Positions 23,472 through 47,790 of a DNA stretch of 64,000 bases are shown here, piece by piece. Source of the stretch: Chondrosia reniformis (Eukaryota; Porifera; Demospongiae; Chondrillida; Chondrillidae). The stretch lies in contig OX359197.1 of NCBI GenBank assembly GCA_947172415.1, positions 5,519,673-5,583,672 on the forward strand, read 5' to 3'. The translations under genes and the position numbers were made by a program. A model generated the notes under the pieces. It was not told the DNA's origin. It worked only from the letters and a program-made list of their open reading frames with translations, and did no database searches. Every line of letters starts with the position of its first letter. Positions within the stretch are counted from its first letter, which is position 1.

Positions 23472-25009
23472 ATGGCAACCACTCTTTTCCTGTTGCTCTG
23501 TCAAGTAATCATTTATGCCAACCAAGTCTCAAGTAAGCCAATCTATTGATAGCTTGCACAGTTCAATTCATTGGAAATCCCTATATACGTATTATACAGG
23601 TATTGACAACAGAGGAAGTGAATTCTGGTTAGCTGTTCCGCCAAATAAGATTCCAGGAGATGCATCTCGTGATGAATTTACTCCACTCTTCTATGTGACC
23701 ACTGATGAGGATACTCCAGTTCCATTTACTGTGAGATTTCGCTTAACTGGTACTCCTTCTTCATATATGGCTACTAAGGGAGAAATTGTTAAAATTGAAG
23801 TACCTGCTGACCTTAAGATTAATGAACAGAACCTTTTAGCTCAAGGGAATGACATGTCTATACTCATTCAGTCTACTGATGGCAGAAACCTCATTGTCTA
23901 TGGACATAATGAAGAAATAGCTTCTACTGATGCGTTCCTTGCACTTCCAAAATTTGAAACTAAAACTGGCACTTATGAATACTATGCAATGTCAGTAGGA
24001 GACAGTGATCAATTTGCTGGACCCTTGGTTGGCTTTGTTGTTATTGTTATTAATGAAGATAACACTGATGTTAGAGTTACACCAACACAGAATGTAGTTA
24101 CATTTTTTGGCATAAATACTTTGATAACTGCTGGAGATACAAAGAGAAGAAGGAGAGCTAATATGGGTGAAGTGTTTACCTTTGCTGCTGCTTCAGGTGA
24201 TCTCACTGGCACAAGGGTCACTGCAGACAAACCAATTACATTCCTGACTGGTCATCAATGTGGATTTATTCCAACAGAAAATACAGCTTGTGACATTTTA
24301 CTTGAACAGATTCCTCCGACCGAGACTTGGGGTTTTCAGTTTGTATTGACACCACTCACAACTAGAGAAGGCAGTGGATTCAAGTTCTTGGCAAGCCAAG
24401 ATGGAACATCTGTTAAAATATCCTGTAATGATGCTGATGGTGATAATGTAATATCAGAATCTCTCTCACTGAATGCTGGAGGATCTGACTTTAAAATTTA
24501 CCCAAAGACTTATTGGTGTTTTGTAGAATCCAACCGCCCTATTCTAGTTGTCACAATCTCACTAGGATATACATTTGATGAACCTATTACTGAAAGCAAT
24601 TTAGCTGATCCATTTATGCTCATGATTCCACCTCTTGGACAACTTAGTAATGACTACACACTAGTATTTACTCAGAGTGATGCTGTTGGAAGCTTTGAGG
24701 ATGCAGTCAACTTTGTGCCTCAGATAAATTTCATTGTTCCTGTAGCGGATTTTGACAGAGGAGAGCTGATCTTGAACAATGGAGCTGCAGATACTTCTAG
24801 TATTAATTTTATTGCTATACATGATTCCTCTGGAGAGATTGTGGCTTATGGGGCACAATTTGTTCCCAATGTTGATCCTACTGCACCTACCAGCCCATTT
24901 TCAGCTCAGTTCTCTGGAAGGGCAACTACCTTAGGAGTTCTGGTGTATGCTTGGTACAGAGAAAATACATACGCATATCCTGGCGGAATGAGACTTGACT
25001 CTATTGCTG
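23472..25009 (+). other. Signal peptide plus IgGFc-binding-like domain (paralogue 1)
   Basis: The signal peptide exon is separated by a 67-base intron from a single 1,410-base exon. That exon begins IDNRGSEFWLAVPPNK, the usual opening of IgGFc-binding N-terminal domains (G-x-E/D-F-W-x-A-F/V-P). It continues with repeated beta-strand segments such as ITFLTGHQCGFIP and YWCFVESNRPILVVTISLGY. A basic run T-K-R-R-R-R at about residue 220 could be cut by a furin-type protease. In vertebrate FCGBP this domain is mucus-associated; ligand binding here is unknown. Confidence 0.75.
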
Positions 25010-28000
25010 GTGAGTCTGGTCAAAATAGGATTTAGCTTAGTAATGAATTATCCAAGTTGTTGATTATCTCATTATCAATCCATTAAATTATATTTACACT
25101 TTAATCTTTCCAGTTCCAATCTACTGTCCAATAAGTGAACCACAACCAGTTGGCTCTGAAACATCTGGTGAAATTCTTGTTCCAATTAGCAGAACCGGTG
25201 TGGTTGAAGGAGAAGCTTGTGTCCAATTTGAGGTTGGCAATGGGACAGCTGTTAGTGAGTTATTTATTCTCAAATTCTTTCTTTTTCTTTTACTACTTTT
25301 TAATGTACTAACTGAATGATAAATGAATTATCAGGTATTTATATATGTCTTATTTTAATAAAGTTAATGAAGACTATAGAGTTGAAGATGACATGTGCTG
25401 TTTTGAGGCAGGAGAAAGAACAACTGAATGTAGGATTGTGGTGATTGCAGATGGTGAAGCTGAGGAAGATGAGACACTTCACTTTAAGATAGTTCCCACT
25501 GCAGACAATTGTGTCTGTGGTGACAATTTAGTTGTTACAATTATCAAAGATGTTCAACGTGAGTTTGAAAACATTTTTCCTTATTGTAACACTATAAGCC
25601 TTTCAATGTTATTTTCCACTATAGCTATTATGGTAGAGTTTGGAGCAATACGCTACAGAGTTGATGAAGATGCAGGAACAGCAGAATTGGAACTTGTAGC
25701 AAGTGCCCCAGCTCCAGATGGAGGATACAATGTGGATGTATCATTTGTTGATGGCACTGCTGGATGTAAGAATATTAAAGTTATAGCCAAGGGACAATGA
25801 TTATTAGCCAATATAATATATAATACAAACTTAAGGCCAAGGTTGAGCCTAGGGCAAGTAATTACATTTCAGCCAAAGTTTGATTTATGTATATATACCC
25901 CCGTTGATGGCATTCAGTCAGCCCAGGATTGATATGGTAAAATGTGAAGGAATGCGTGAGTTTTGATCCAGTGACTAAAGAAACTGAAGTAATAAAAACA
26001 AATATGTTTCAATATTCCCATCCAAAGCATTCTAAATATTAATCAGCACTACACACTGAACATGGTACAATGTCCACTATTTTCAGCTCGTTGCCATGGC
26101 AATGGGGTATAAATATATAGGTATAAGCATTTATATACATACATCATAAATAATACTATATATATATGGCTAGCTTTACTACGTATATATTTGTAGTATA
26201 CTGTTCGTTTATTTATTTATCCACAGCTCCTGGAGACTATGATAACACTGCACAAACGGTCAACTTCCCAGCTGGAGCCAATACTGCCACATTATCAGTT
26301 CCTATTGTTGATGATGAAGTTTTGGAACATCATGAGACATTTGATGCTAGTCTTGCACTACCTGATGGTACTCCATCTCAGGTCAGCCTTGGAAGAAGAG
26401 ATGAGGCTATGGTAACAATCCTGGACGAAGAGATAGCTGAGGTACATTATGATCCTGATTCATATGAATGGGACGAATCTGTTGGAACTGGATTTTTGAC
26501 TATTGTGTCTAATGTGACTTCTACAGTGGATTACTCAGTAAATACAGTGTTATCCAATGGAACAGCTTACGGTATATATATTACCAAATATACAAACAGA
26601 CTTATGGCAATGTATTGGAATAGTTTCAAAAGCTAATTTCTCTTGTTTGTGTTGCAGGTGGTTTAGATTTTGTCAATGATGCTGCTTATTATCAAGCTAC
26701 CTTTGCTGCTGGAAGCAACTCAGCTCAAGTGGGAGTTGTAGTTATAGATGATGCAGATATAGAAGAGGATGAAATGTTTGAAGGAATGCTTGTGTTGGGA
26801 GACCTGCATCCAGACCTAGAAGGCAGAGTGGTGATTGGAAGTCCTGATACAGCTACTATCACTATTTTTGATAATGAACCAAAGGATATTACAGTGCAAT
26901 TTGACCAAACTGAATATTCTGTAGCTGAAAATGGAGGTTTTGTATCGTTGCAACTTATAGCTGACAAGCCAGCTCCAGAAGGGGGATATAGTGTTATGAT
27001 ATCTTTAGCTGATGGATCTGCCACAGGTTAGATGATATATACAGTGCAAGCTACAATATAGTAAGGTAATCTAATCTACGATGATATATTCTTAAAGGGT
27101 GCAAATGTCTTATCATTGAGGATGTCCAATTTGACGGATAAGTCTTCACTTGCATAATGGACATATCCTAATTGTTCAATTGTACATATCCACACACTAA
27201 TTAGAAAAGCCATCTTCTTTACTTATTTTATGCTGCTTATGCAGTATGTATAAAGTATGTGAAAGAGTGAAACCAACTGTAAAGTATATACGTGCATGTA
27301 TCAATGTATTGTACAGTATAAAATTTGCATAAGTGATTCTATTTCTAGTTGTGAAGCTCTTATTGATTGGCAAACATTTACCTGTTTGTTAAATTAAATT
27401 AATCCATTTACGTACGTATGGGCATATGTGAAGATGTTATCTTCAGAACAGAGACAGTAGCTATAGGAGTAGGAGGACTAAAAAAAGTGCTAAAAAGATG
27501 TGTTAGGACCAATTACTCCCAAATAATGTGGCCAAAAGTGGTTCTAGCTGGTCTAGATGAGAATTACACATATACATTATTGAATGTGTTCAGGACAATT
27601 CCAGGTGGATTTACATTTTTCCAGGATGACTGTAAATGTATGACTACATATTGGTAATGGAGAGAAAGAATTGACATTGTTAATTGTTAATTGTTATTAT
27701 AGATTAGATTAATACGTATATACTTATACTATATGTTTCCAATTTTCTGCATATATTTTATACATACGTACGTTTATTTTTGATCATTTATTAGGATTAC
27801 AGGACTATGACAACATGTCTTTGACAGTCTTTTTTGATGAAGGACAAACAACAGCTACTGCAGATGTTAAAATTGTAGATGACACTATCCTTGAACGTCT
27901 GGAGACATTTACTGGACAACTGTCACTTCCTGAAGGCACTGCAGATTTCATTAAGATAGGACCCAGTGACACAGCCACTATTGATATTACTGATAATGAT

Positions 28001-31000
28001 GCTGTTGAGGTCAACTTTGATCCTACTATATATTCAGTCCGTGAGAATGATGGATCAGTTGAACTAATATTAGTTGCCAATGCATCAGCATCTTATGGCT
28101 ATTCTGTTACTGTTGAAACATTTGATGGAACAGCTAGTAAGTAGCTTCATAAGGTAGCCCATTATACTAGTATACATGTACTTGCCAACTTTTAATCAAA
28201 TTGTACTTGACATAATATCTCATTTGTGATGTTTACTTAGGTGATGGCTCAGATTACACTGGTGGATCATTTGAGGTTGAATTTCCTGCTGGTAGTACTA
28301 CTGCTAGCCTATCCGTGCCAATTTTGGAAGATATCTTGCTGGAAGGAAATGAATGGTTTGGTGGTCTCCTAAGTGTTAGTGGTGTTGATGGAGTGATGGC
28401 TGGACCTGACAATATGGCTAATGTCACTATAACAGACAACGAGGGTGACATTTTTGTAGAATTTGAAAAATCAGCTTACAGCTTCAATGAAGATGTAGGA
28501 GATGGAATACTCACTCTTGTGGCAGATAAACCAGCCCCAGCTGGAGGATACAGTGTGGAAGTATCATTTGCTGATGGAACTGCTGGATGTAAGCAAAAAC
28601 TACCATAAACTTTATTGTACATGCATGCTATTCTAATTAGATAGAGATATATTAATGTCTAAATACACATTTACTTACATACACATTTACAAGGGCTAAG
28701 TGGAGACTCAAGATCTGGTTTCCATCAAATGAACTTTGGTTCCACCCTTTGCTCATTGCACACCTTAGAAAACTTGAGTGGGTGGGGTAAAATATATATA
28801 TTTATACATTGTATGTATGAGATATATACATTTTTCATATTTTATTTTAAAATCAGCTCCAGGAGACTACGATGGTGTAACACAAACAGTTTTCTTCGCC
28901 GAAGGGGCTACTTCAGTTAATTTTTCTGTACCTATTGTTAATGACAACCTATTAGAAGGTAATGAAAACTTTATGGCTAATATTGAGGACATATCGGAAG
29001 CAGCAGCTGATCTGGGAGTTAAAAAGGGAACCAGAGACTCTGCAGAAGTTACTATCACTGATAATGATTCTGTCCAGGTCAACTTCTCTCCAACCATGTA
29101 TACTGTATCTGAAGATGGAGGATCAGTTGAATTGATGCTAGTTGCCAGTGGACCTGCACCATTTAACTACTCTGTGACTGTAGACACATTTGATGGAACA
29201 GCTAGTAAGACACATCACAATACTGGTTGAATTACAGTATTTAACAAGTTTTTAAGTATTCATATAAATATGCAATATTCTCCTGGTAATTCATGTTTCC
29301 TTTTATACGTCCGTACATAGGTGATGGCTCAGATTACACTGGTGGATCATTTCAGGTTGATTTTCTAGCTGGTAGTACTACTGCTAGCCTATCCGTGCCA
29401 ATTTTGGATGATAATCTATTTGAAGGCCCAGAATGGTTTGGAGGGTTTCTCACTATTGAACCTGGTAGTTCAGCAGAACTTGGTGGAGTGACAGTTGGGC
29501 CTGACCAAACTGCTAATGTCACCATTTCAGATGATGAGGGTGCAATTTTTGTTCAGTTTGATAGCACTACCTATTCTTTCAATGAAGATGTTGGTCAAGG
29601 AAAGCTTACACTTGTGGCCGACCAGCCTGCCCCAGAAGGAGGATACAGTGTTGAAGTATCATTTGAAGATGGAACTGCTGGATGTAAGTCTCAATTGAAT
29701 ACTTTATACAAAATGTGACTCAAGCATATTATGTACTACAATACCCCATTGTCTTGGCAACTGATACAATGATGTAATTCGCATGCACTGCATATTTCTC
29801 ATTTTTATATATATATGTATATTATATTTATATAGACACATACGTACATACGTATATGTATGTATATATACAATCTTGGTACATAATATGCAGCCCCTGG
29901 AGACTATGATGGAACAACACAAACTGTGTTCTTTGCTGAGGGTGAAAGTATGGCGATGCTGTTTGTTCCAATTGAAGATGATTTCTTTCTAGAAGAAGAT
30001 GAAGACTTTGAAGCCGAAATCATTATTCCTGATGATGCAGGGGACAAGGGGGTAATGAAAGGACCAAATGACTCAGCGGATGTAACAATTCTTGACTCTC
30101 CTCCAATTGAAGTCAACTTCTCTCCAACCTCTTATGAAGTGAATGAAGAGGATGGTACTGCAACCCTCATAATAGTAGCTGATAAACCATCATCAGAGCC
30201 TTATACAGTTAATGTGGTGACATCTGATGGAACTGCTGAAGGTTAAAAAGAACTATATAGTGGATGTGTTTATTAGATTATCTGCAATACTATATATATA
30301 TATTGAATTAATTATATTATATTATTTATTTATTTAGATTACCTTAGTATATTGTAACTTGCACTATATATATATATATATATATATCATTCATGTCAAT
30401 TTAGATCCATCAGATTATATTGGTGGCACTTATCCAGTTGAGTTCCCACCTGGAGAGACCACTGTAACAGTGATGATACCTCTTGAAGATGATGATTTTG
30501 ATGAATGCACAGAAATGTTCACAGGCCAATTGCAGCTTCCTGGGACACCTGATGAATCTCCTGAAGTTTTTGTTGGCTTAGAGGATACAGCTTCTGTAAG
30601 CATCAAAGACAGTGATCGTAAGTTAATTTGAGGAAACTACATAATAAATCAATGAATTTGTCAAATGAACGTACATAGGTATATTCAAATTTTGCATATA
30701 CACATTTGATAAAGTGATGTTCTTAATAAATATATATAATAATGTGTGTTTAGCTTTCAATGTCAACTTCAAGAGCACAAACATGGTTGTATTTGAGAAT
30801 GCTTCAAGAATTGAAGTGTGCCTGGAAACGGACAGAAAATGTGACGATGAATTTTCTGTTAACCTACAGAATCTTATGGCAACTGGTGACAGAAATTCAG
30901 CAGGTACTTATAAGTGTATTGCTGAATATATATATACCTAGGCTAGATGTACATATGCAAACCATACATTATGCATGTGGGCAGTAATCTAAAATCCATT

Positions 31001-32948
31001 TTCCTATGTACTAAATCTATTCTACAGTAAAAGGCCTATAGGGAACTTAACTTCGTGAGAGCATTGTATAAGGATGCCTTCTCTTTATTCCTCTGCTCCA
31101 CTGGGCCATACAGCTGTGTCTGGGAATATATATTGCCCTTCATTAGTGACTCTGGGAATACTTATTTGAATATCCTTGTACTGCATATTGTTAATTGTTG
31201 ATAAACTTGATGCAGTATAATATTAATTAATCAATTTGTTTATACGTATGTATAATAATATTGTTCAAGTAGTCGATCATGTATATTGAGAGCAAATAGC
31301 AATACAATCTCTCTACAATCATATTATATGTACGTACACCATACATTGATCACAATGAGCTTCACATGTTGCAAAGAGGTATTGTAATTTTGTGAACATT
31401 TTGCATTCTCTATTTTTGTATTTTGATCATAACAGAGGCACCTAATGACTATGGCGATGGACCATATCCCGTCACCTTCAAGGCTGGTGAAAAGGATGCA
31501 TGCACTATGATACCTATTGTCGATGATAATAATCCGGAAGATGAGGAAGACTTTAAGTTGGTAATTGATCCACCTGATAACCTGCCAGAATTACAAGTTG
31601 GTCCTATGAACGAAGTTAACATTACTATCAAGGATGATGGTAAGTGATGATTAGTGATATAATTACATATCATGGACTATTATTACTTCTATTATATACA
31701 TAGTATGTATACATAATGCTTGCTTATGTAATATTGACAACTTTGGCTGTTATTGTGTTCACATACATACACATACATATACATATAAAACCATTACAAT
31801 ATAAAACATACTTATTCATATAATGTGTGATTGTAGGTGATGTTGACGGTGATCCCATGTTCACTGTACCACTGAACATCTCTAAGGATAGTTTTATACT
31901 CAAAGATAAAGGAAAGCTAGACCTTTGTTATGAAGTTCATGGAGAGAAGAACAAGATCTTTAATCTGATGTCTGATAGCTGTCTCTCAATCAATGCACTT
32001 TTGGAAGAACCTGCAAAAAATCCAGAGATTGGCAATGTAATGACTGAGGTTGGAGTAATTGCAAAGGACTTGAATGGTAATTGCCAGAGAATACATGTGG
32101 ATCTAAAGCAGAGAAGCCTCAAACTCAACAATGAGAGGATTGTTGGACAAAAAACATACAATGGAATGCATCTGTTGAAGTTACGTGACAGAGTAGAGGT
32201 ATCCATGCCTGGATGTATTAATGGAACATCACTGAGTTTTAGGATTGAATTTAACTACATGAATGGTGCAGATATGCTGAAAGTAATCTTCTCAGATGAA
32301 TCAGGCCTCAGACAAGATTCCCATGGTTTAATGGGTAAGAGTATATATAAAGTTACATAGGGATACAATTTGAAACTAATTACATCAGTTAGAGCATTAA
32401 TCAAATTTGATTCAAAGAGACCATTTAAAATGTTGTGGTTAATAGTACAGACATGAATCTAATAAGACTAGTTAATCTAATAATACCTTGAGAGTTATGA
32501 AATAAAAATGTTCACCAAAGCATGCAGCTGTCACACTTTATATATTATACACATAAAAGAAGTATTTAATTCCAAAGATTCTTGATATATATATCATGAT
32601 CGATGATTTAATGGCTCTATCTACTCAGGTCAATTCTGGAATACTGCAATTTATGTTGATGACAAACATGGAACACTAAAAGAACCAAAAATTACAGAAT
32701 ACTACACCATTTATGTCCAATCTACATTATCAAAGTCTGATTCTATCCCAAAGCCTCGCCCAATCAAGGGAGAGTATTATCCTTTGACATGGAACAGAGG
32801 AAATACACCTTGTCTTTATGCTGGAAAAGACAGACAGGGAACTGGAGTGATTGAGGGTAGCTACAAAGAGTATGAAACAGCAGATCTGTTTGATCCCTTC
32901 TTTCTCTACACTCAATTCTCCACCAGCCACTGCTCAAATGAGAAATAA
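23472..32948 (+). CDS. Secreted IgGFc-binding-domain / Calx-beta / ITIH-C-like protein, paralogue 1
   Basis: Predicted protein of about 1,931 aa on 17 exons: 23472-23532, 23600-25009, 25114-25254, 25364-25558, 25625-25765, 26227-26571, 26658-27026, 27795-28136, 28241-28588, 28857-29204, 29321-29683, 29894-30241, 30405-30617, 30754-30903, 31436-31639, 31837-32334, 32629-32948. All introns are phase 1. The start at 23472 gives a signal peptide (MATTLFLLLCQVIIYA). A ~470-residue IgGFc-binding-like domain follows, then roughly nine Calx-beta modules, then the GDP/HGLMG/EGSYKEYE module also seen in the giant gene. The stop is TAA at 32946. It is probably extracellular and calcium-dependent. The gene lies 3.4 kb downstream of the giant Calx-beta gene and is followed by a close paralogue. 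Exact function is unknown. Confidence 0.86.
25114..31639 (+). other. Calx-beta region of paralogue 1
   Basis: The region opens with a cysteine-bearing module (YCPISEPQ, ACVQFEVGNGTAV, then NEDYRVEDDMCCFEAGERTTECRI). Most later exons are about 345 bases and hold the C half of one module plus the N half of the next. The pair DGSDYTGGSF / PGDYDG.TQTVFF occurs twice (28241-28588 with 28857-29204, and 29321-29683 with 29894-30241). The last module (30754-30903, 31436-31639) again has cysteines (IEVCLETDRKCDD, DACTMIPI). For exon 25364-25558 the acceptor at 25363 was chosen because it is the one that keeps frame and yields a typical N-E-D-Y junction. Confidence 0.8.
31026..31160 (+). mobile_element. 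Dispersed repeat family 1, copy in an intron
   Basis: AGTAAAAGGCCTATAGGGAAC and the following CTCCACTGGGCCATACAGCTG match the left arm of the inverted element at 52172-52480. It lies in the intron before exon 31436-31639. Confidence 0.6.
31837..32948 (+). other. C-terminal VWD/ITIH-like module (paralogue 1)
   Basis: Exons 31837-32334 and 32629-32948. Key segments are GDPMFTVPL, LCYEVHGEKNKIFNL, MTEVGVIAKD, DSHGLMG, QFWNTAIYV, TPCLYAG and VIEGSYKEYETADLF. The intron falls after the HGLMG glycine, exactly as in the giant gene and paralogue 2. The sequence AAATAAAG overlaps the stop codon and could serve as an early polyadenylation signal. Confidence 0.7.
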
Positions 32949-33705
32949 AGGAGCTTCACAATTGATTCAAGCCTCTCTTAGATCAGTATAGTAAACCTTA
33001 AGCCTTTCTACTTATAACTTCTATACTTCACTTCATATAAGCCATTAAAATCTTGATAAAATCTACAGTGTTTGATTATTAAACAATTTTTGTCAATTAA
33101 TAGATTGTGAAGATTGTGATTAATTAATTGCAAGTTGCGTCATCGAACTATACGTAGATACATGTTATGGGAAACTTCATGCAAGTCTCATCATTTAACT
33201 GACTTTCGTTCCCATTAAGCAAACTTCATTTCTGTCCTTTGTTCATCGCGCTCCTCAGGAGACAAGAGTGGGTGCATGGGGTAAATCCAGATCTAGTGTC
33301 TCCCCCAGACAGCTGTTTCATCCTTATTAGGACTAGTACTCATCAGCGTATAGGGCATGCATTGGAAGTTTTTAGTGAATGGCCAGCTGCTAATAAGTAC
33401 TCCCAAAAGCTATGTAATTATATGTACTCCTATTCAATTTTTCACCCTATGAAGGCTCCCTGTTATATAACTACCAACCAGCGGGGCCCTATATATACTA
33501 TCTATACGCACGACAACTTAAAGTAAAGGTGATAGACGGGCTATGCAGCAGGCTTTAGTTAAGTCTTGCACCTGACGCGTTATTTCATTTCGCAATCGGG
33601 ACTATTAATATTACCAATAATCGCTTCTAATTCGTTGTTGATATCGATTTGTATAGAGCGGCCATTTTAATGTAAAGATATACACACCCTTTTTGGGAGT
33701 GTGCT
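32949..33705. other. Spacer between the two IgGFc/Calx-beta paralogues
   Basis: Only about 0.8 kb separates the stop of paralogue 1 from the start of paralogue 2. The segment 33225-33300 contains GCTCCTCAGG and a GGGTGCATGGGGTAAAT stretch, related to a repeat found in introns of paralogue 2. The patch 33540-33670 is richer in CpG and contains GCGGCCATTTTAA. No gene is seen; a 95-codon open frame at 33239 has no supporting features. Confidence 0.65.
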
Positions 33706-33708
33706 ACA

Positions 33709-33759
33709 TATAAATATAAAATGTTTGTAAAATATTATTCAGTCCAGTGTAGTGATCTG
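33709..33759 (+). promoter_or_regulatory. TATA-like box and conserved leader of paralogue 2
   Basis: TATAAATA lies at 33709-33716 and the leader TCCAGTGTAGTGATCTG at 33743-33759. An in-frame ATG at 33721 lies too close to the TATA box to be in the transcript, which supports 33778 as the start. Confidence 0.55.
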
Positions 33760-33777
33760 CCTGAAAACACTACAGGG

Positions 33778-36700
33778 ATGATGGAGAAATTTAAAGTTAC
33801 TCTTTTCTTCCTAGTAACCAAAATACTTTTGAACGCCAATCAAGTGATTGGTGAGAACTGATTGATAGAGTATACGTATACATATAGAAGGAATGAAGAT
33901 ATAGATTTGAAAATTAACTATATATTGTAATATACTCTTTGTGTATATTCTACATTCCCCTAATTATATATATGTAGGTATTGACAACAGAGGAAGTGAA
34001 TTCTGGTTAGCTGTTCCACCCAACAAAATAGCAGGAGAAAGAAATGAATTTACTCCACTCTTCTATGTGACCACTGATGAGGATACTCCTGTTCCATTTA
34101 TTGTGAGATTTAGGTTAACTGGTACTCCCACTTCATATATGGCTACTAAGGGAGAAATTGTTAAAATTGAAGTACCTGATGACCTTAAGATCAATCATGC
34201 AAATCTTGTAGGCCAAGGGAATGATATGTCTATACTCATAAACTCAACAGATGGCAGAAATCTCATTGTCTATGGACATAATGAAGAAGTTTCTTCTACT
34301 GATGCCTTCCTTGCACTTCCAAAATTTGAAACTAAAAATGGTACTTATGAATATTATGCAATGTCAGTAGGAGACAGTGAGCAATTTGAGGGTAAATTGG
34401 TTGGCTTTGTTGTTATTGTTATTAATGAAGATAACACTGATGTTAGAGTTACACCGACACAGAATGTAGTTACATTTTTTGGCACAAACACTTTGATAAA
34501 TGCTGGAGATACAAAGAGAAGAAGAAGAGCTAAGATTGGTGAAGTGTTTACCTTTGCTGCTGATTCAGGTGATCTCACTGGCACAAGGGTCACTGCAGAC
34601 AAACCAATTACATTCCTGACTGGTCATGAATGTGGATTTATTCCAACAGAAAATACAGCTTGTGACATTTTACTTGAACAGATTCCTCCGACTGAGACTT
34701 GGGGTTTTCAGTTTGTATTGACACCACTCACAACTAGAGAAGGCAGTGGATTCAAGTTCTTGGCAAGCCAAGATGGAACATCTGTTAAAATATCCTGTAA
34801 TGATGTTGATGGCGATAATGTAATATCAGAATCTCTCTCACTGAATGCTGGAGGATCTAATTTAAAAATGTATCCAAAGACTTATTGGTGTTTTGTAGAA
34901 TCCAACCGCCCTATTCTAGTTGTCACAATCTCACTAGGATATACATTTGATGCACCTATTACTGAAAGCAATTTAGCTGATCCGTTTATGCTCATGATTC
35001 CACCTCTTGGACAACTTAGCAATGACTACACGCTAGTATTTTCTCAAAGTGATGCTGTTGGAAGTTTTAACGATGCAGTCAACTTTGTGCCTCAGATAAA
35101 TTTCATTGTTCCTGCAGCGGATTTTGACAGAGGAGAGCTGATCTTGAACAATGGAGCTGAAGATACTTCTAGTATTAATTTTATTGCTATACATGATTCC
35201 TCTGGAGAGGTTGCGGCTTATGGAGCTACATTTGTTCCCGATGTTGATCCTACTGCACCTACCAGCCCATTTTCAGCTCGGTTCTCTGGAAGGGCAACTA
35301 CCTTAGGAGTTCTGGTGTATGCCTGGTACAGAGAAAATACATACGGATATCCTGGTGGAATGAGACTTGACTCTATTGCTGGTGAGTCTGGTCAAAATAG
35401 GATTTAGCTTAGTAATGAATTATCCAAGTTGTTGATTATCTCATTATCAATCCATTAAATTATATTTACACTTTAATCTTTCCAGTTCCAATCTACTGTC
35501 CAATAAGTGAACCACAACCAGTTGGCTCTGAAACATCTGGTGAAATTCTTGTTCCAATTAGCAGAACCGGTGTGGCTGAAGGAGAAGCTTGTGTCCAATT
35601 TGAGGTTGGCAATGGGACAGCTGTTGGTGAGTTATTTATTCTCAAATTATTCCTTTTTCTTTTACTACTTTTTAATGTACTAACTCATTGATGAATGAAT
35701 TATCAGGTATGTATATATGTCTTATTTTAATAAAGTTAATGAAGACTATAGAGTTGAAGATGACATGTGCTGTTTTGAGGCAGAAGAAAGAACAACTGAA
35801 TGTAGGATTGTGGTGATTGCAGATGGTAATGCTGAGGAAGATGAGACACTTCACTTTAAGATAGTTCCCACTGCAGACAATTGTGTCTGTGATGACAATT
35901 TAGTTGTTACAATTATCAAAGATGTTCAACGTGAGTTTGAAAACATTTTTCCTTATTGTAACACTATAAGCCTTTCAATGTTATTTTCCACTATAGCTAT
36001 TATGGTAGAGTTTGGAGCAATACGCTACAGAGTTGATGAAGATGCAGGAACAGCAGAATTGGAACTTGTAGCAAGTGCCCCAGCTCCAGATGGAGGATAC
36101 AATGTGGATGTATCATTTGTTGATGGCACTGCTGGATGTAAGAACATTTAATAGTTATAGCCAAGGGACAATGACTATTAGCCATATATATAATAGAAAC
36201 TTAAGGCCAAGGTTGAGCCTAAGGCAAGTAATTACATTTCAGCCAAAGTTTGATTTACGTATATATACCCTGTTGATGGCATTCAGTCAGCCCAGGATTG
36301 AAATGGTAAAATGTGAAGGAATGCATGATATTTGAACCAGTGACTAAAGAAACTGAAGAAATAAAAAACAAATATGTTCCAATATTCATCCAAAGCATTC
36401 TAAATATTAATCAGCACTACACACTGAACATGGTACAATGTCCACTATTATCAGCTCATTGCCATGACATTGGGGTATAAATAAGTATAAGCATTTATAT
36501 CATAAATATTACTATGTATTTATAGTATACCATACATTTATTTATCCACAGCTCCTGGAGACTATGATAACACTGCACAAACGGTCAACTTCCCAGCTGG
36601 AGCAACTACTGCCACATTATCAGTTCCTATTGTTGATGATGAAGTTTTGGAACATCATGAGACATTTGATGCTAGTCTTGCACTACCTGATGGTACTCCA

Positions 36701-39700
36701 TCTCAAGTTATTCTTGGAGGAAGAGATGAGGCTATGGTAACAATCCTGGACGATGAGATAGCTGAGGTACATTATGATCCTGATTCATATGAATGGAACG
36801 AATCTGTTGGAACTGGAAATTTGACTATTGTGTCTAATGTGACTTCTACAGTGGATTACTCAGTAAATACAGTATTATCCAATGGAACAGCTTACGGTAA
36901 ATATACAAACAGACTTATGGCAATGTATTGGAATAGTTTAAGGCTAATTTCTCTTGTTTGTGTTGCAGGTGGTTTAGATTTTGTCAATGATGCTGCTTAT
37001 TATCAAGCTACCTTTGCTGCTGGAAGTAGCTCAGCTCAAGTGGGAGTTGTCATTATAGATGATACAGATATAGAAGAGGATGAAATGTTTGAAGGAATGC
37101 TTGTGTTGGGAGACCTGCATCCAGACCTAGAAGGCAGAGTGGTGATTGGAAGTCCTGATACAGCTACTATCACTATTTTAGATAATGAACCAAAGGATAT
37201 TACAGTGCAATTTGACCAAACTGAATATTCTGTAGCTGAAAATGGAGGTTTTGTATCGTTGCAACTTATAGCTGACAAGCCAGCTCCGGTGGGGGGATAT
37301 AGTGTTATGATATCTTTTGCTGATGGATCTGCCGCAGGTTAGATGATACTGTATATACAGTGCAAGTTACAATATAGTAAGGTAGTCTAATCTACAATGA
37401 TATATTCTTAAAGGGTGCAAATGTCTTATCATTGAGGATGTCCAATTTGACGGATAAGTCTTCACTTGCATAATGTTCAATTGTACATATCCACACACTA
37501 ATTAGAAAAGCCATCTTCTTTACTTATTTTATTCTGCTTATGCTGTATGCATAAAGTATATGTGAAAGAGTGAAGCCAACTGTAAAGTATATACGTGCAC
37601 GTATCAATGTATTGTACAATATAAAATTTGCATAAGTGATTCTATTTCTAGTTGTGAAGCTCTTATTGATTATTAAATTAAATTAGTCCACTTACGTACG
37701 TATGGGCATATGTGAAGATGTTATCTTCAGAACAGGGACAGTAGCTATAGGAGTAGGAGGACTCTTATTGATCATTTTTACATGTTTGGTGGACTAAAAA
37801 GTGCTAAAAAGGATGTGTTAGGACCAATATTACTACATTATTTGGGAGTAATTAATTACTCCCAAATAATGTAGCCAAAAGTGGTTCTAGCTGGTCTAGT
37901 TGTGAATTATACATAATACACTATTGAATGTGTTCAGGACAATTCCAGGTTGATTTACATTTTATCCAGGATGACTGTAAATGTATGACTACATATTGGT
38001 AATGGAGTTAATTGTTAATTGTTATTATAGATTAGATAAATATGTTTATACGTACTTATACTATATGTTTCCAATTTTCTGCATATATTTTATACGTACG
38101 TATGTATATTTTTGATCATTTATTAGGATTACAGGACTATGACAACATGTCTTTGACAGTCTTTTTTGATGAAGGACAAACAACAGCTACTGTAGATGTT
38201 GATATTATAGATGACACTATCCTTGAGCGTTTGGAGACATTTACTGGACAACTGTCACTTCCTGAAGGCACTGCAGATTTCATTAAGATAGGACCCAGGG
38301 ACACAGCCACTATTAATATTACTGATAATGATGCTGTTGAGGTCAACTTTGATCCTACTATATATTCAGTCCGTGAGAATGATGGATCAGTTGAACTAAT
38401 ATTAGTTGCCAATGCATCAGCATCTTATGGCTATTCTGTTACTGTTGAAACATTTGATGGAACAGCTAGTAAGTAGCTTCATAAGGTAGCCCATTATACT
38501 AGTATACATGTACTTGCCAACTTTTAATCAAATTGTACTTGACATAATATCTCATTTGTGATGTTTACTTAGGTGATGGCTCAGATTACACTGGTGGATC
38601 ATTTGAGATTGATTTTCCTGCTGGAAGTACTACTGCTAGCCTAACCGTGCCAATTTTGGATGATATCTTACTGGAAGGGATTGAATGGTTTGGTGGTCTC
38701 CTAACTGTTAGTGATGTTGATGGAGTGATGGCTGGACCTGACAATATGGCTAATGTCACTATAACAGACAACGAGGGTGACATTATTGTAGAATTTGAAA
38801 AATCAGCTTACAGCTTCAATGAAGATGTAGGAGATGGAATCCTCACTCTTGTAGCAAGTGCCCCAGCCCCAGCTGGAGGATACAGTGTGGAAGTATCATT
38901 TGCTGATGGAACTGCTGGATGTAAGCAAAAACTACCACATCAAATTACTATTAAGTAAAATACATTGTGCCTGCCCTAAATACACATTTACATTGCACTC
39001 CTCAGGTGGGTGGGGTAAATTCCACAGTCAAATGTGATGACACATACACATATTCAAGTTGTATTGTAACATTCTCCAATATTATATACATATTGAAGTT
39101 ATTTACTTAAAGTACATATGTTATCTATTAAACTTTAGTATATAGCATATCATATATTTTTCTCATTTTTTTAATCAGCTCCAGGAGACTACAGTGGTGC
39201 AACACAAACAGTTTTCTTCCCCGAAGGGGCTAGATCAGTTAATTTTTCTGTACCTATTGTTAATGACAGCCTATTAGAAGGTAATGAAAACTTTATGGCT
39301 AATATTGAGGACATATCAGAAGCAGCAGCTGATCTGGGAGTTAAAAGGGGAGCCAGAGACTCTGCAGAAGTTACTATCACTGATAATGATTCGGTCCAGG
39401 TCAACTTCTCTCCAACCATGTATACTGTATCTGAAGATGGAGGATCAGTTGAATTGATGCTAGTTGCCAGTGGTCCTGCAACATTTAACTACTCTGTGAC
39501 TGTAGACATATTTAATGGAACAGCTGGTAAGACACATCACAATACTGGTTGAATTACAGTATTAAGTACTAATATAAATATGCAATATTCTCCTGGTACG
39601 TACATATAGGTGATGGCTCTGACTATACTGGTGGATCTTTTGAGGTTGAATTTCCTGCTGGGAGTATTACTGCTAGTTTAACCGTGCCAATTTTGGAAGA

Positions 39701-42700
39701 TATCTTGTTGGAAGGAAATGAATGGTTTGGTGGTCTCCTAAGTGTTAGTGGTGTTGATGGAGTGATGGCTGGACCTGACAATATGGCTAATGTCACTATA
39801 TTAGACAACGAGGGTGACATTATTGTAGAATTTGAAAAATCAGCTTACAGCTTCAATGAAGATGTAGGGGATGGAATCCTCACTCTTGTAGCAAGTGCCC
39901 CAGCCCCAGCTGGAGGATACAGTGTGGAAGTATCATTTGCTGATGGAACTGCTGGATGTAAGCAAAAACTACCACATCAAATTATTATTAAGTAAAATAT
40001 ATTTTGCCTGCCCTAAATAGACATTTACATTGCACTCCTCAGGTGGGTGGGGTGAATTCCACAATCAAATGTGATGACACATACACATAATCAAGTTGTA
40101 TTGTAGCATTCTCCAATATTATATACATATTGAAGTTATTTACTTACTGTACGTATGTTATCTATTAAACTTCAGTGTAGCATATTATATATTTTACTCA
40201 TTTTTTAATCAGCTCCAGGAGACTACGATGGTGCAACACAAACAGTTTCCTTCCCCGAAGGGGCTAGCTCAGTTGATTTTTCTGTACCTATTGTTAATGA
40301 CAGCCTATTAGAAGGTAATGAAAACTTTATGGCTAATATTGAGGACATATCAGAAGCAGCAGCTGATCTGGGAGTTAAAAAGGGAGCCAGAGACTCTGCA
40401 GAAGTTACTATCACTGATAATGATTCGGTCCAGGTCAACTTCTCTCCAACCATGTATACTGTATTTGAAAATGGAGGATCAGTTGAATTGATGCTAGTTG
40501 CCAGTGGTCCTGCAACATTTAACTACTCTGTGACTGTAGACACATTTAATGGAACTGCTGGTAAGACACATCACAATACTGGTTGAATTACAGTATTAAG
40601 TACTAATATAAATATGCAATATTCTCCTGGTAATTCATGTTACGTACATATAGGCGATGGCTCTGATTATACTGGTGGATCTTTTGAGGTTGAATTTCCT
40701 GCTGGGAGTACTACTGCTAGTCTAACCGTGCCAATTTTGGAAGATATCTTGTTGGAAGGAAATGAATGGTTTGGTGGTCTCCTAAGTGTTAGTGATGTTG
40801 ATGGAGTGATGGCTGGACCTGACAATATGGCTAATGTCACTATAACAGACAACGAGGGTGACATTATTGTAGAATTTGAAAAATCAGCTTACAGCTTTAA
40901 TGAAGATGTAGGAGATGGAATCCTCACTCTTGTAGCAAGTGCCCCAGCCCCAGCTGGAGGATACAGTGTGGAAGTATCATTTGCTGATGGAACTGCTGGA
41001 TGTAAGCAAAAACTACCACATCAAATTTATTAAGTAAAATACGTTGTGCCTGCCCTAAATACACATTTACATTGCACTCCTCAGGTGGGTGGGGTAAATT
41101 CCACAGTCAAATGTGATGACACATACACATAATCAAGTTGTATTGTAGCATTCTCCAATAATATGTACATATTGAAGTTATTTACTTAATGTAACTACGT
41201 ATGTTATCTATTAAACTTTAGTATATAGCATATTATATATTTTTCTCATTTTTGTAATCAGCTCCAGGAGACTACGATGGTGTAACACAAACAGTTTTCT
41301 TCGCCGAAGGGGCTAGCTCAGTTGATTTTTCTGTACCTATTGTTAATGACAGCCTATTAGAAGGTAATGAAAACTTTATGGCTAATATTGAGGACATATC
41401 AGAAGCAGCAGCTGATCTGGGAGTTAAAAAGGGAGCCAGAGACTCTGCAGAAGTTACTATCACTGATAATGATTCGGTCCAGGTCAACTTCTCTCCAACC
41501 ATGTATACTGTATCTGAAGATGGAGGATCAGTTGAATTGATGCTAGTTGCCAGTGGTCCTGCACCGTTTAACTACTCTGTGACTGTAGACACATTTGATG
41601 GAACAGCTAGTAAGACACATCACAATACAAATTTTTAAGTACTAATATAAATATGCAATATTCTCCTGGTAATTCATGTTACGTACATATAGGTGATGGC
41701 TCTGATTATACTGGTGGATCATTTGAGGTTGATTTTCCTGCTGGTAGTACTACTGCTAGTCTAACCGTGCCAATTTTGGAAGATATCTTGTTGGAAGAAA
41801 ATGAATGGTTTGGTGGTCTCCTAAGTGTTAGTGGTGTTGATGGAGTGATGGCTGGACCTGACAATATGGCTAATGTCACTATAACAGACAATGAGGGTGA
41901 CATTATTGTAGAATTTGAAAAATCAGCTTACAGCTTTAATGAAGATGTAGGAGATGGAATCCTCACTCTTGTGGCAAATAAAGCAGCTCCAGCTGGAGGA
42001 TACAGTGTGGAGGTATCATTTGCTGATGGAACTGCTGGATGTAAGCAAAAACTACCACATCAAATTATTATTAAGTAAAATACATTGTGCCTGCCCTAAA
42101 TACACATTTACATTGCACTCCTTAGGTGGGTGGGGTAAATTCCACAGTCAAATGTGATGACACATACACATATTCAAGTTGTATTGTAGCATTCTCCAAT
42201 AATATATAATTATATGGATATTGAAGTTATTTGCTTAATAAAATTTCTCAATTTTTTTAATCAGCTCCAGGAGACTACGATGGTGCAACACAAACAGTTT
42301 TCTTCCCCGAAGGAGCTAGATCAGTTAATTTTTCTGTACCTATTGTTAATGACAGCCTATTAGAAGGTAATGAAAACTTTATGGCTAATATTGAGGACAT
42401 ATCGGAAGCAGCAGCTGATCTGGGAGTTAAAAAGGGAGCCAGAGACTCTGCAGAAGTTACTATCACTGATAATGATTCTGTCCAGGTCAACTTCTCTCCA
42501 ACCATGTATACTATATCTGAAGATGGAGGATCAGTTGAATTGATGCTGGTTACCAGTGGTCCTGCACCATTTAACTACTCTGTGACTGTAGACACATTTG
42601 ATGGAACAGCTAGTAAGACGCATCACATACTGCAGCTGATTGAATTACAGTATTTAACAAATTTTTAAGTACTAATATATATATGCAATATTCTCCTGGT

Positions 42701-45700
42701 AATTCATGTTTCCTTTTATACGTACGTACATAGGTGATGGCTCTGATTATACTGGTGGATCATTTGAGGTTGATTTTCCTGCTGGTAGTACTACTGCTAG
42801 CTTAACAGTGGACATTTTGGATGATAATCTTCCAGAACTAGATGAATGGTTTGGTGGTCTCCTTTCTGTTTCTGGTGTTGAGGGAGTAACAAATGGACCT
42901 CAATCTCTTGCCAATGTCACTATATCAGATGAAGAAGAAATCTTTGTCCAATTTGATAGAGCTGGTTACATCTTTGATGAAGATGTAGGAGATGGAATAC
43001 TCACTCTTGTGGCAGATAAACCAGCCCCAGCTGGAGGATACAGTGTGGACGTGTCATTTGCTGATGGAACTGCTGGATGTAAGAGTGTATGAATATGAAA
43101 TGTGATTTAACTGCATTATGAGCTCTTAATTCTTAAAATGTCTATATAGTCTTTTTAAAACTTTATTTTTCTATAATTATTAGCTCCGGGAGACTATACA
43201 GGCAACACACAGTCAGTGTTTTTTCCAGAAGGTGCTAGTTCAGCTCAAGTTGCTGTTCCTATCTTCAATGATGATTTTGTGGAAGGTGATGAAACCTTCA
43301 CAGCTATCATTGATCCTATAGCAGCTGATGGAGTGAGAAGAGGAGCAAGAAATTCTACTAATGTGATCATCATCGATGATGAATTTATTGAAATCAACTT
43401 TGATCCAACTTCTTATGAAGTGAACGAAGAGGATGGTACCGCAACCCTCATAATAGTAGCTGATAGACCATCATCAGAGCCTTATACAGTTAATGTGGTG
43501 ACATCTGATGGAACTGCTGAAGGTTATATACGTATATTATCATATATTATACATATTTGTATATATACGCACATAAATTGTCATTACAACTAGTTATAAA
43601 TATATTTATAATTGGTAATATATATATTAAATAAATGAAATTGCTAGAATGTTTTTAACATAATAGCCCTTTTTGGTTATAATTTATTGATTTCAATTTA
43701 TATATATACGTAGACCCCATTGATTATATTGGTGGGATCTTTTTGGCTAATTTCTCTACTGGAGAGACTACCACCACAGTAACAATACCCATCACAGATG
43801 ATGACATTGGTGAATGCACGGAAGTGTTCATGGCTCAACTAGAGCTTCCTAGTGGTATACCAACGCCAGCTCCAGCGACTCCAGGTACACCATCGCCATT
43901 TTCCTTCTCTCCTAAATATAGAATTGGTTCTAATGACATGGCAACTATCAAAATCAATGATACTGATCGTGAGTTGAAAATATAGGCAGAGATGCAATTA
44001 GTATAACGCTATATAATTATGTGAAACACTCTTCAGCTTACTATGTTGAGTTTAAAAGTACATCTCAAGTTGTATCTGAAGATGAAGAATCAGCGGAAGT
44101 GTGTTTAGTAACAAACAGAGAATGTGTTGATGATTTTACTATTGACTTGGAAGACAAGGAATCAGATGAATTTACGGATAAAGCAGGTTTGTGTTCAGCT
44201 AAAGCTATATACATATATATACATATGTTTGAGCCAGCACCAGTTGTATTATATATACACAATTGCAAAAGGCAATGTTTTTTTCCAAATATATACATAT
44301 ACATTATTTAAGGAGTTAAGATCAAAATGTTAGTTATGTATATGTAAATTTAAATCTTAGTCTAAGATTAGCTATGTACATCTAAATTAGGATGTAATGA
44401 ATTTGTTTATATATATAGTACAGTGTATGTTAATTCTCCTAAAGTATGTATACACAAAATATATATAGCAATTTTCTATATATCATTAAATTAATCTTCA
44501 GATCCTAGTAACGACTATGAGGGAGGTAAAACGTATCCAGTTACCTTTGAAATGGGTAAAAAGGAGGCTTGTACTATGATTCCTATTGTCAATGATGGTC
44601 CCGGTGGAGAACCAGATGAGACCTTCCAGTTGGTGATAGTGCCTCCCCCAGATCAGCCACGAGCCCTAATTGGAAATAGATCTACTACTAACAATATTAC
44701 TATTACAGATGGAGGTAAGGAAAAAACAATATTAGGTATATGCTATTATTGTCATGCATTAAAATGACACATTTACCACTGAGTTGCCCAAGAGGAAAGT
44801 GTTCACTGACAGCCGTATCGACTGTGCATGCAAGTACCCATTTGTGCTCTTTTTTTTGTGCATTTGTGCATTAGTGCTCTTATTATTATATATTTGTTGT
44901 AGTTGATGGAGATCCCATGTTCACCGTTCCCTTAAACATTTCTAAGGATAGTTGGATACTCAAAGAGAAAGGAAAACTAGAGCTTTGCTATGAAGTTCAT
45001 GGAGAGAAGAACAAGATTTTTAATCTGGTGTCTGATAGCTGTCTCTCAGTCAATGCACTCTTGGAGGTAGCTTCCAACCCAAAGATTGGCAATGTAATAA
45101 CTCAAATTGGAATGATTGTAATGGACTGGAATGGAAATTGCCAGAGAATACATGTGGACCTGAAGCAGAGAAGTCTCAAACTCAACAATGAGAGGATTAC
45201 GGGAAGTAGAGTGTACAATGGAATCCTTCTAAGAAAGATGATTGACAAGGTAGAGATAACAATGCCTGGATGTACTACTGGAAACAAGTTGACCTTTTGG
45301 ATTAAATTCAAATACATGAATGGTGCAGATATGTTACAGCTTGTTATATCAGATGGATCGGGACTTAGACTAGACTCTCATGGATTGCTCGGTAAGCGAT
45401 TGTACTGTATATATTTAATCTTATGTAAGTAGATGTTCATGTATAATATATAGTCAAAATGTTAAAAGTAAAGTATAGATCAGAATGGCATTATATATAT
45501 ATATATTATTATATACTTGCAGAAGATAATAATAGTCAAAACAAAACTCATCAGAGTCATTCAAAACTTTCAAAGTCACCTAATTTAATTACACCATTAT
45601 AAAAATAATCCTGCAAATGAACTTTGCATGTATTATGCATGGAGCTTATATTTACATGTAGTAGTTTTCTACAGGTCAATTCTGGAATACTCCAATTAAA

Positions 45701-45973
45701 GTTGATGACAAACAGGGACAATTGAAGCAACCAAAATCTGGAGAATACTACACTATTCATGTCCCATCTGCCTTCTCCAAGCCTCGTTCCATCAAGGGAG
45801 AATATTATCCTCTAAATTGGGATTTTGAAGAGCTGCCTTGTCTTTATGCTGGAAGTCAAGAGGGCAAAGGAGTGATTGAGGGTAATTACAAAGAGTATGA
45901 AACAACTGATATGTTTGATCCGTCCTTTAGCTATGCTCAATTCTCTAACGGCCACTGCTCAACTGAGAAGTAA
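33778..45973 (+). CDS. Secreted IgGFc-binding-domain / Calx-beta / ITIH-C-like protein, paralogue 2
   Basis: Predicted protein of about 2,627 aa on 23 exons: 33778-33850, 33978-35381, 35486-35626, 35736-35930, 35997-36137, 36552-36896, 36969-37337, 38127-38468, ten paired exons from 38573 to 43522, 43714-43968, 44037-44186, 44502-44714, 44903-45391, 45675-45973. The signal peptide is MMEKFKVTLFFLVTKILLNA; a second ATG is at codon 2. Order of parts and intron positions match paralogue 1, and intron sequences are also conserved, so the pair is a recent tandem duplication. It differs by a larger Calx-beta pair array and a proline/threonine-rich insert (TPAPATPGTPSPF) in exon 43714-43968. The stop is TAA at 45971. 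Likely an extracellular calcium-binding adhesion or recognition protein; function not proven. Confidence 0.87.
33978..35381 (+). other. IgGFc-binding-like domain (paralogue 2)
   Basis: A single exon of 468 codons starts GIDNRGSEFWLAVPPNK. It is nearly identical to the paralogue 1 exon except for scattered substitutions and a two-codon deletion near the start (PGDASRDEF against AGERNEF). The basic run T-K-R-R-R-R is conserved and is a candidate proprotein-convertase site. Cysteines in ECGFIP, TACDILL, ISCND and YWCFVE are conserved between the copies. Confidence 0.75.
37833..37874. repeat. Perfect 42-nt palindrome in an intron of paralogue 2
   Basis: The left half CTACATTATTTGGGAGTAATT is followed at once by its exact reverse complement. 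The equivalent intron of paralogue 1 (near 27520) has only the right half (ACTCCCAAATAATGTGG). The element either arose in paralogue 2 or was resolved in paralogue 1. Confidence 0.85.
38573..43522 (+). repeat. Five tandem ~1.04-kb exon pairs of Calx-beta modules (paralogue 2)
   Basis: Pairs are 38573-38920 / 39179-39526, 39610-39957 / 40213-40560, 40654-41001 / 41262-41609, 41693-42040 / 42265-42612, and 42734-43078 / 43184-43522. The first member encodes DGSDYTGGSFEVEFPAG ... EWFGGLL ... EGDI and the second PGDYDG.TQTVFF ... MANIEDISEAAADLG. The first eight exons are each exactly 348 bases (116 codons) and nearly identical. The fifth pair is diverged and corresponds to the last pair of paralogue 1, which has only two pairs. 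The spacing (1037, 1044, 1039, 1041 bases) and repeated introns show segmental expansion. Confidence 0.92.
44903..45973 (+). other. C-terminal VWD/ITIH-like module (paralogue 2)
   Basis: Exons 44903-45391 and 45675-45973. Key segments are GDPMFTVPLNISKDSW, LCYEVHGEKNKIFNLVSD, DSHGLLG, QFWNTPIKVDDKQG, LPCLYAGSQ and VIEGNYKEYETTDMFDP. It is very similar to the paralogue 1 module, with a slightly shorter insert after NALLE. Confidence 0.7.
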
Positions 45974-47303
45974 CATTTTTGGAGATCATTCAGCAATTAG
46001 TTCAACACACCAAGCAATCAAAGAACATTATAGGCCAGTAATAATACTTTATCATGATTTACAAAGTGTCACTCACAATGCATGATATGAATTAATGATA
46101 ATACCATTGCTGTACTTATGTTTAACAGGCTCTGTACCCTTGTTAAATGTCAAATTATTTTCACAGCATTTACTAGTGTGATTGAATTTAACAGTTCCGT
46201 TGTTGAATGCATGACATCCATACCCACTTATACAATAATATGTATGACTAAAACTAGGGGTTACAAGTATATAGAGTTTGAAACTATACATCAAGTCAAG
46301 TCATGCAAGTGAAGTACACTGGGGAGGCCTCTAGCTATTGGCTACTATTCTAGGCATCCAGTAATAAATATGGAGGGATGGAAAAAAATTGTGTAGGAGA
46401 ATAAGAATCATAGGGCTGAAAAATGATGATTGAAAACAAAAGGCCTAATTGACCATGTACAAGAATACAGGAAATCAACAAGTATTTTGAGTTTAAAAAC
46501 TGGCCTGGCGCCCCCAAACTCAAACTACTTGCTTGTTCTTAAATGTCCAGTTAAACGATTCCGGTCTGCCATTGAATTAGTAGTTTGCCCTTGTTATACA
46601 GTATATATTATTATTGTGATGTCTATATAGGCTATAGGCTATTTACAGAGTATTATATAGGCATATAGCATGTAGGGAAATGGATATGGTGTTTTTTACA
46701 ACATGACAATATATATAAAGAGTACAAGTCATAAAATCCTCTGATTCCTGTATAGGATAAATACCTATGCAATCAATTTAAGTTTTATGAAATACATTTA
46801 AACGAGCAATAAACGATAAATTCATTAATCAAAGTTATGGGAATGATGAATCTTGCACAGAGTTAAAGTTAATATTTGCAAGCTTTAGTCACTGCTCTGT
46901 ATATATAGTGTGGGTTAAAATGTACTCCTGCTATCAGCAAACGTGACATTCAAGCAATGAGAACATCACACCTAATAGTTTACAAATCATATTGCATACC
47001 AATTACATTTTCACACCCGTAGAAATATTATACAATTGCAAATTACACGGCTACTGGGTATAGACAATTTGGTAAATTGTAAACAATTATATATAATTAT
47101 AAGGGCATGAATATTGAGCACAGTCCACAGAGTTAACCAAGTCAGTTAATTGAATCTTAAAGTTTATCTAATTATCAATTAGTAGGAGAAAACTTTAAAA
47201 TGGACCCATACAAAGCTTACAATGGCAACTGTTGTTCTACTCTGTAATAATTAGATGATATGGAAGTAATTTTCTTACATACATTTACTCTAACAAAATT
47301 AAA
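45974..47303. other. Spacer downstream of paralogue 2
   Basis: No gene is recognised; open frames here are short and lack splice or motif support. AATAAA at 46363-46368 is about 390 bases after the stop and is a possible polyadenylation signal. The sequence is A+T-rich up to the start of the IgGFc-like fragment. Confidence 0.6.
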
Positions 47304-47718
47304 GCTGATTCAGGTGATCTCACTGGCACAAGAGTCACTGCAGACAAACCAATTACATTCCCGACTGGTCATGAATGTGGATTTGTTCCAACAGAAAATA
47401 CAGCTTATGACATTTTACTTGAACAGATTCCTCCGACCGAGACTTGGGGCTTCCAGTTTGTATTGACACCACTCACAACTAGAGAAGGCAGTTGGTTTAG
47501 GTTCTTGGCAAGCCAAGATGGAACATCCATTGAAATATACTGTAATGATGCTGATGGCGATAATGTAATATTGGAATCTCTCTCACTGAATGCTGGAGGA
47601 TCTGACTTTAAAATTTACCCAAAGACTTTTTGTATAAATGCATGGTGTTTTGTAGAATCCAACCACCCTAATCTATAGTTGTCACGTTCTCACTAGTCAA
47701 TACATTTGATAAGCCTAG
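47304..47718 (+). pseudogene. Broken fragment of a third IgGFc-binding-like exon
   Basis: From ADSGDLTGTRVTADKP the sequence follows the middle of the paralogue 1 and 2 large exons for about 125 codons. The upstream half is absent. Damage includes the loss of a conserved cysteine (TAYDILL for TACDILL), an insertion before WCFVESN that adds several codons (FCINA), and a small insertion after HPNL that produces a stop and frameshift. Degraded similarity to the following TISLGYTFD segment continues to about 47718. No Calx-beta exons follow. It is a relic of a third gene copy or a partial duplication. Confidence 0.82.
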
Positions 47719-47790
47719 TCTATATTACTGCAAGTGATCAGTCTGATCCAAATATACACCTACGTATATATATATGTACGTATGGTGACA

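Follow-up and report, generated by a model that had tools for sequence, protein, structure and literature searches.

Tandem genes of the sponge Chondrosia reniformis predicted to encode secreted proteins with an IgGFc-type head, a Calx-beta stalk and a VWD-fold C-terminal module

We analysed a 64,000-nucleotide stretch of the Chondrosia reniformis genome (assembly GCA_947172415.1, contig OX359197.1, positions 5,519,673 to 5,583,672 of the forward strand; hereafter the window), in which two genes, A and B, lie head to tail on the plus strand. Our preferred reading, to which we give a probability of about 0.53, is that each gene encodes a single secreted protein of several domains, belonging to an aggregation-factor-like family that has expanded in this sponge. 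What appears to be new, judged from sequence, is that such Calx-beta proteins would carry an IgGFc domain as head and a VWD/ITI_HC_C-like module as tail. Here we describe the gene models and their domains, the predicted fold of the C-terminal module, the family in the genome and its mosaic evolution.

Results

Genes A and B share one exon order

In both genes a hydrophobic, signal-peptide-like exon is followed by a large IgGFc exon, then by Calx-beta exons and finally by the two exons of the C-terminal module (Table 1). All introns are GT-AG and in phase 1 (16 of 16 in gene A, 22 of 22 in gene B), and each reading frame has a single, terminal stop. The models were built with a home-made splice and coding Viterbi program whose splice-site search was open to all phases; several exons were placed manually by reading the sequence, and one further intron was recognised through a paralogue on another chromosome (the C1 copy). 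Signal peptides were called by reading the sequence, not by a prediction program. An earlier reading of the same DNA, made from its letters without database searches (the sequence-only reading), had placed the pair between 23472 and 45973, and the models agree: the first is the ATG of the gene A signal peptide and the second the final base of the gene B stop codon. The motifs it had picked out also fall into place in genes A and B, respectively: GSEFWLAVPPNK at 23614-23649 and 33992-34027, GDPMF at 31848-31862 and 44908-44922, HGLMG/HGLLG across the last splice junction (32322-32630 and 45379-45676) and VIEGxYKEYE at 32847-32876 and 45872-45901. It had further proposed that the whole architecture sits in one gene, and a continuous model was obtained for both A and B. 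From these models, the intron phase and the same order at other loci, we infer that each gene gives one transcript; the signal-peptide-like first exon suggests that the products are secreted.

Table 1 Features modelled in the window, in window positions
Feature	Position	Strand	Description
Giant Calx-beta gene, 3' part	439..20059	+	Free-ended model; module at 18965-19477 and ~19710-20059; ITI_HC_C E 0.036, 14.1 bits
Gene A	23472..32948	+	17 exons, 1931 aa; putative signal peptide, IgGFc, ~10 Calx-beta, C-terminal VWD/ITI_HC_C-like module
Gene A exon 1	23472..23532	+	Putative signal peptide; ATG and hydrophobic stretch, donor GTAAGC, phase 1
Gene A exon 2	23600..25009	+	IgGFc_binding domain (PF17517), E 1.6e-45
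Gene A exons 3-15	25114..31639	+	Calx-beta array, PF03160
Gene A last two exons	31837-32334 and 32629-32948	+	C-terminal VWD/ITI_HC_C-like module
Gene B	33778..45973	+	23 exons, 2627 aa; architecture of gene A with ~16 Calx-beta domains
Gene B exon 2	33978..35381	+	IgGFc_binding domain, E 1.2e-45
Gene B exons 3-21	35486..44714	+	Calx-beta array
Gene B last two exons	44903-45391 and 45675-45973	+	C-terminal module; ITI_HC_C E 0.00087, below cut-off
IgGFc relic, 3' of gene B	47259..47675	+	PF17517, 83.3 bits; two TAG in the wider genome match

An IgGFc head and a Calx-beta stalk

The IgGFc domain named by the sequence-only reading was recovered by Pfam with 156.1 bits in gene A and 156.5 bits in gene B, against a cut-off of 25.6, the matches spanning positions 1-239 and 1-234 of the 297 in the profile. 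Its Calx-beta arrays were likewise borne out, PF03160 reaching 537.8 bits in gene A (E 2.4e-164, cut-off 27) over ten tandem stretches. For both families the gene A scan was run on the protein minus its C-terminal module. A local hidden Markov model (HMM) counted 10 Calx-beta units in gene A and 16 in gene B, the first unit being weak in each.

FCGBP resembles these proteins in having both an IgGFc domain and VWD-fold domains. It differs in its repeated VWD-C8-TIL assemblies, whereas the stalk of gene A is made of Calx-beta, and the Pfam scan of gene A minus its tail reported neither C8 nor TIL.

The C-terminal module has a VWD fold and resembles ITI_HC_C

The C terminus had been called ITIH-like, which holds as a resemblance but not as membership of the family. 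Pfam was run on the three modules of the window and on ten chosen paralogues. ITI_HC_C (PF06668) was the sole family reported for all three window modules, with 19 bits in gene A (E 0.0012), 19.4 in gene B (E 0.00087) and 14.1 in the giant neighbour (E 0.036), all under the cut-off of 27. Among the paralogues it was the only match of six (E 1.5e-4 to 0.17, maximum 21.9 bits), two matched other families (E 0.024 and 0.057) and two matched none. ITI_HC_C is hence the top match of 9 of the 13 modules and never reaches its cut-off, and the Pfam VWD model is absent from the matches of all 13. The AlphaFold2 (AF2) model of the module's first exon in gene A nevertheless has a VWD fold and matches solved VWD domains, and the scan of gene A minus its tail, taken to E <= 1, returned neither the VIT nor the VWA domain of ITIH proteins. 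Fold, missing VIT and VWA domains and sub-threshold ITI_HC_C scores together argue for a VWD-like, ITI_HC_C-like module rather than an ITIH protein. This puts such a domain in a sponge, beyond the ITIH family.

We then aligned the site that corresponds to the self-cleavage motif GDPH. The alignment comprises 25 distinct modules, each longer than 150 residues, from loci L009-L042; it leaves out a truncated copy (L020, L042), a partial second copy (L032), a short stray piece (L024), identical duplicates and module places without a fetched locus. The Asp is present in 25 of 25 modules and the Pro in 19, with Ala in its place in the other 6, and the His is found in none, Met, Leu or Val standing there instead. 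The missing His and the missing Pfam VWD match set the module apart from the VWD domains of VWF, MUC2, MUC5AC/B, RGMB and FCGBP. The lack of GDPH in all 25, with the low scores and the missing VIT and VWA domains, also separates it from ITIH proteins, which it otherwise resembles in its best Pfam match.

ITIH heavy chains are ester-linked to chondroitin sulphate. The sponge module might similarly cleave itself at Asp-Pro, its new C-terminal Asp then being esterified to a glycosaminoglycan so that the stalk is mounted covalently on a glycan backbone. We regard this as quite improbable. The invariant Asp and the 19 Asp-Pro pairs, at the start of the VWD fold, speak for such a reaction, but the His of GDPH is missing throughout and Ala replaces Pro in almost a quarter of the modules. 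One study (PMC10880436) offers a parallel for both sides: ITIH3, 5 and 6 have GDPH in such a domain, which has a VWD-like fold, and changing GDPH to GDPN inhibited the cleavage of FCGBP.

A family concentrated on one chromosome

The search covered 117,379,552 bases in 15 contigs; the genome note gives odChoReni1.1 as 117.37 Mb in 14 chromosomes plus the mitochondrion, with 7.7 Mb for chromosome 9 (PMC12181767). We found 56 IgGFc places, at least 154 Calx-beta places and 35 clear places for the first module exon, the two weakest such matches (E 0.005 and 0.008) being excluded. Placement statistics use 150 listed Calx-beta places of the 154 found. A single chromosome, C9, holds 124 of these 150 and 29 of the 35 module places. 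The sequence-only reading had described two tandem genes and, with the giant neighbour, suggested a family. The family exists, but two tandem genes are too narrow a view: for 13 of the 56 IgGFc places, Calx-beta is listed within 12 kb downstream on the same strand; elsewhere the rule is an IgGFc place without one (43 of 56). Within 5 kb of IgGFc places, Calx-beta lies downstream in 11 cases, upstream in 2 and on the opposite strand in none. A listed module was found within the limit used at 7 of the 13 combined places, one of them a truncated copy.

Several relatives repeat the order of genes A and B. Gene C, on C9, has a complete free-ended model with signal peptide, IgGFc, six Calx-beta stretches, VWD, module and stop. 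Gene D has the same order with a much longer array and a model that ends at a stop, its 5' start lying outside the model. Scanned exon by exon, the VWD domains of genes C and D scored 25.7 and 27.4 bits against a cut-off of 22.9, and the whole protein of gene C scored 22.5, just under it. The C1 copy, on the minus strand, carries head, stalk and tail exons in order; its free-ended model falls into two pieces, the second of which comprises the final Calx-beta exons and the whole tail. Near C9:5390058, a collagen-type segment, Calx-beta and a truncated module carrying a stop come after an IgGFc place; a second, separate piece then joins Calx-beta to a complete module.

Some loci show other combinations. 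The predicted collagen triple-helix segment (PF01391, 58.9 bits) lies in L042/L030 (C9:5377238-5390100, minus strand). One IgGFc locus without listed Calx-beta has predicted fibronectin-III-like stretches, recognised by reading and with no family search. At L041 (C9:1660600-1670599), Calx-beta exons that by eye resemble the array of gene B give way to different Calx-beta exons, and no module is listed close by; to judge from the sequence, recombination may have fused the two. On C4, 96 kb (G000:C4:1492825-1588461) hold dozens of strong VWD places, in a separate VWD-rich gene or cluster.

Genes A and B are mosaics

Introns 2-7 of genes A and B are 94-100% identical and intron 1 is 75% identical. 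Synonymous divergence (dS) follows a similar course: numbered as in the earlier gene models, before the last intron correction, exons 3-8 have a dS of 0 to 0.07, the IgGFc exon 0.135 and the last five exons 0.5 to 2.05. The first tail exon of gene A is closer to the C1 copy (85%) than to its neighbour B (74%). This pattern is best explained, on the sequence comparison, by recombination or gene conversion in the 5' part. Both ends look constrained between A and B, to judge from the ratio of non-synonymous to synonymous change (omega), which stands at 0.33 in the IgGFc exon and at 0.23 and 0.40 in the two tail exons. With phase-1 introns on both sides of every internal exon, the reading frame survives when a unit is added, removed or swapped, and this would account for the widely differing lengths of the stalks.

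Discussion

Proposed working of the proteins

We propose that the N-terminal IgGFc-type domain is a putative ligand-binding head and that the Calx-beta array would form a long acidic stalk stiffened by calcium. Stalk length would vary as phase-1-flanked internal exons are duplicated, deleted or swapped in frame, and the VWD-fold module at the C terminus may anchor the protein or assemble with other matrix proteins or glycans. The family probably builds outer matrix or aids the recognition of cell partners. We infer the dependence on calcium, the division between a binding head and an anchoring tail and the role in adhesion or recognition from sequence; the partner may be a sponge cell, a matrix glycan or a bacterium.

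Self recognition in sponges, like their ability to distinguish symbionts from food, is a long-standing question for which aggregation factors are the main candidates. A shuffled multi-locus family with a Calx-beta stalk and an IgGFc head names concrete genes, models and domains for it in a chromosome-level genome. A bolder version of the proposal is that C9 holds an exon-shuffled repertoire, made possible by the phase-1 rule, in which IgGFc heads are exchanged onto variable Calx-beta stalks and VWD/ITIH-type tails, recombination and partial gene conversion keep the diversity, and the products act as a coat for self/non-self or symbiont recognition. This extension is speculative and we think it decidedly unlikely.

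Evidence against the proposal and alternative readings

A number of observations weigh against one aggregation-factor-like protein per gene. Run with free ends, the program fused the giant neighbour to gene A and ended at 30246, ahead of the last exons of gene A, and it broke the C1 copy at the equivalent position. The join 30241/30405, the weakest of gene A, has an unusual donor, GTTAAA; once the start of gene A was fixed and the sequence was cut off at the stop of the gene, the program spliced through this join. Such breaks in models from a home-made tool could mean that IgGFc, Calx-beta and tail exons are separate transcripts that the model has wrongly joined. We consider this highly improbable, as phase 1 runs unbroken through 16 and 22 introns, the order recurs at other loci and on another chromosome, the free-ended model of gene C reaches its stop, and a signal-peptide exon was seen only ahead of the IgGFc exon.

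Other points concern the domains and the family. The structure model of the IgGFc domain is moderate (predicted local distance difference test, pLDDT, 70.9) and no solved structure emerged as a convincing relative, 6 of the 13 places with IgGFc and Calx-beta have no listed C-terminal module within the limit used, and some near-identical Calx-beta exons show an omega of up to 0.93, on few changes. Pfam VWD was not listed in gene A minus its tail, in the module or, in the exon-wise genome search, in the window. The Pfam check suggested with the sequence-only reading thus came out divided, with IgGFc_binding and Calx-beta over their cut-offs, ITI_HC_C under its own and VWD unlisted in the window. 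IgGFc relatives also occur in bacteria (39 loci; most alignments show 23-34% identity, three short ones 48-56%), so the name of the domain tells nothing of its function here.

These bacterial relatives agree with a different reading, in which the proteins belong to a host-microbe matrix or mucus: the head would bind bacteria or mucus-like glycoproteins, as has been proposed for FCGBP, stalk and tail would hold it in the mesohyl or at the canal surface, and adhesion of sponge cells would not be the main task. The 56 IgGFc places, one of them followed by the predicted fibronectin-III-like region, point the same way, but Calx-beta with VWD is the combination of aggregation factors, and we hold this reading to be possible, if rather unlikely. 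Two publications also favour it: the genome note reports metagenome-assembled genomes (MAGs) typical of a high-microbial-abundance sponge (PMC12181767), and a figure legend on sponge pattern recognition, from a Halichondria study, lists IgGFc-binding and Calx-beta among other domains (PMC8242945). Beyond that co-listing in the legend, we did not find the combination in our searches of an open-access library.

Genes A and B might, conversely, encode true aggregation factors, through which sponge cells adhere in a species- or individual-specific way. Like MAFp3/MAFp4 and the aggregation factors of Amphimedon, they have long Calx-beta arrays in products whose secretion is suggested by the first exon, and belong to clustered, fast-changing genes; the concentration on C9 and the mosaic evolution fit as well. 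The VWD domain is typical of aggregation factors and stands ahead of the module in genes C and D. Grice et al. 2017 reportedly describe Calx-beta, VWD and Wreath as aggregation-factor domains, Wreath being said to be C-terminal, and on this reading our module would be that Wreath domain. Genes A and B differ, however, in their N-terminal IgGFc head, which to our knowledge is found in no published aggregation factor, and one relative has a collagen segment; we judge full membership unlikely and prefer an aggregation-factor-like family.

Other features of the window

Upstream of gene A lies the 3' part of a giant Calx-beta gene. It had been noted as a neighbour with the same C-terminal module, and its module is indeed 35% identical to that of gene A. 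Calx-beta places continue to the left of the window, beyond the modelled part, and no IgGFc place is listed from the preceding module copy (C9:5494875) to gene A. Between 8200 and 16050 on the plus strand, the modelled exon list of the giant gene shows a similar four-exon block repeated about eight times, every 923-964 bases; the period limit of our repeat finder, 500, is shorter than this block. A minisatellite at 3345-3592 (15-base unit, 16.5 copies, 98% matches) lies in a modelled intron of the same gene.

The IgGFc relic downstream of gene B resembles the IgGFc exons of both genes and is, by its sequence, a decayed further copy. A tandem array adjoins it at 47790-48235 (172-base unit, 2.6 copies).

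Further downstream, a 408-codon open frame on the plus strand (54733-55956) matches the Innexin family with 29.8 bits against a cut-off of 25 (E 4.5e-7) and contains three stretches whose hydrophobicity exceeds the threshold used. Its best sequence match in the PDB is pannexin-2, at E 0.78. The genome search for Innexin listed four more places over the cut-off, all on C3, and did not list this frame. According to two published papers, sponges lack known innexins and pannexins; the frame may encode a distant relative of large-pore channels.

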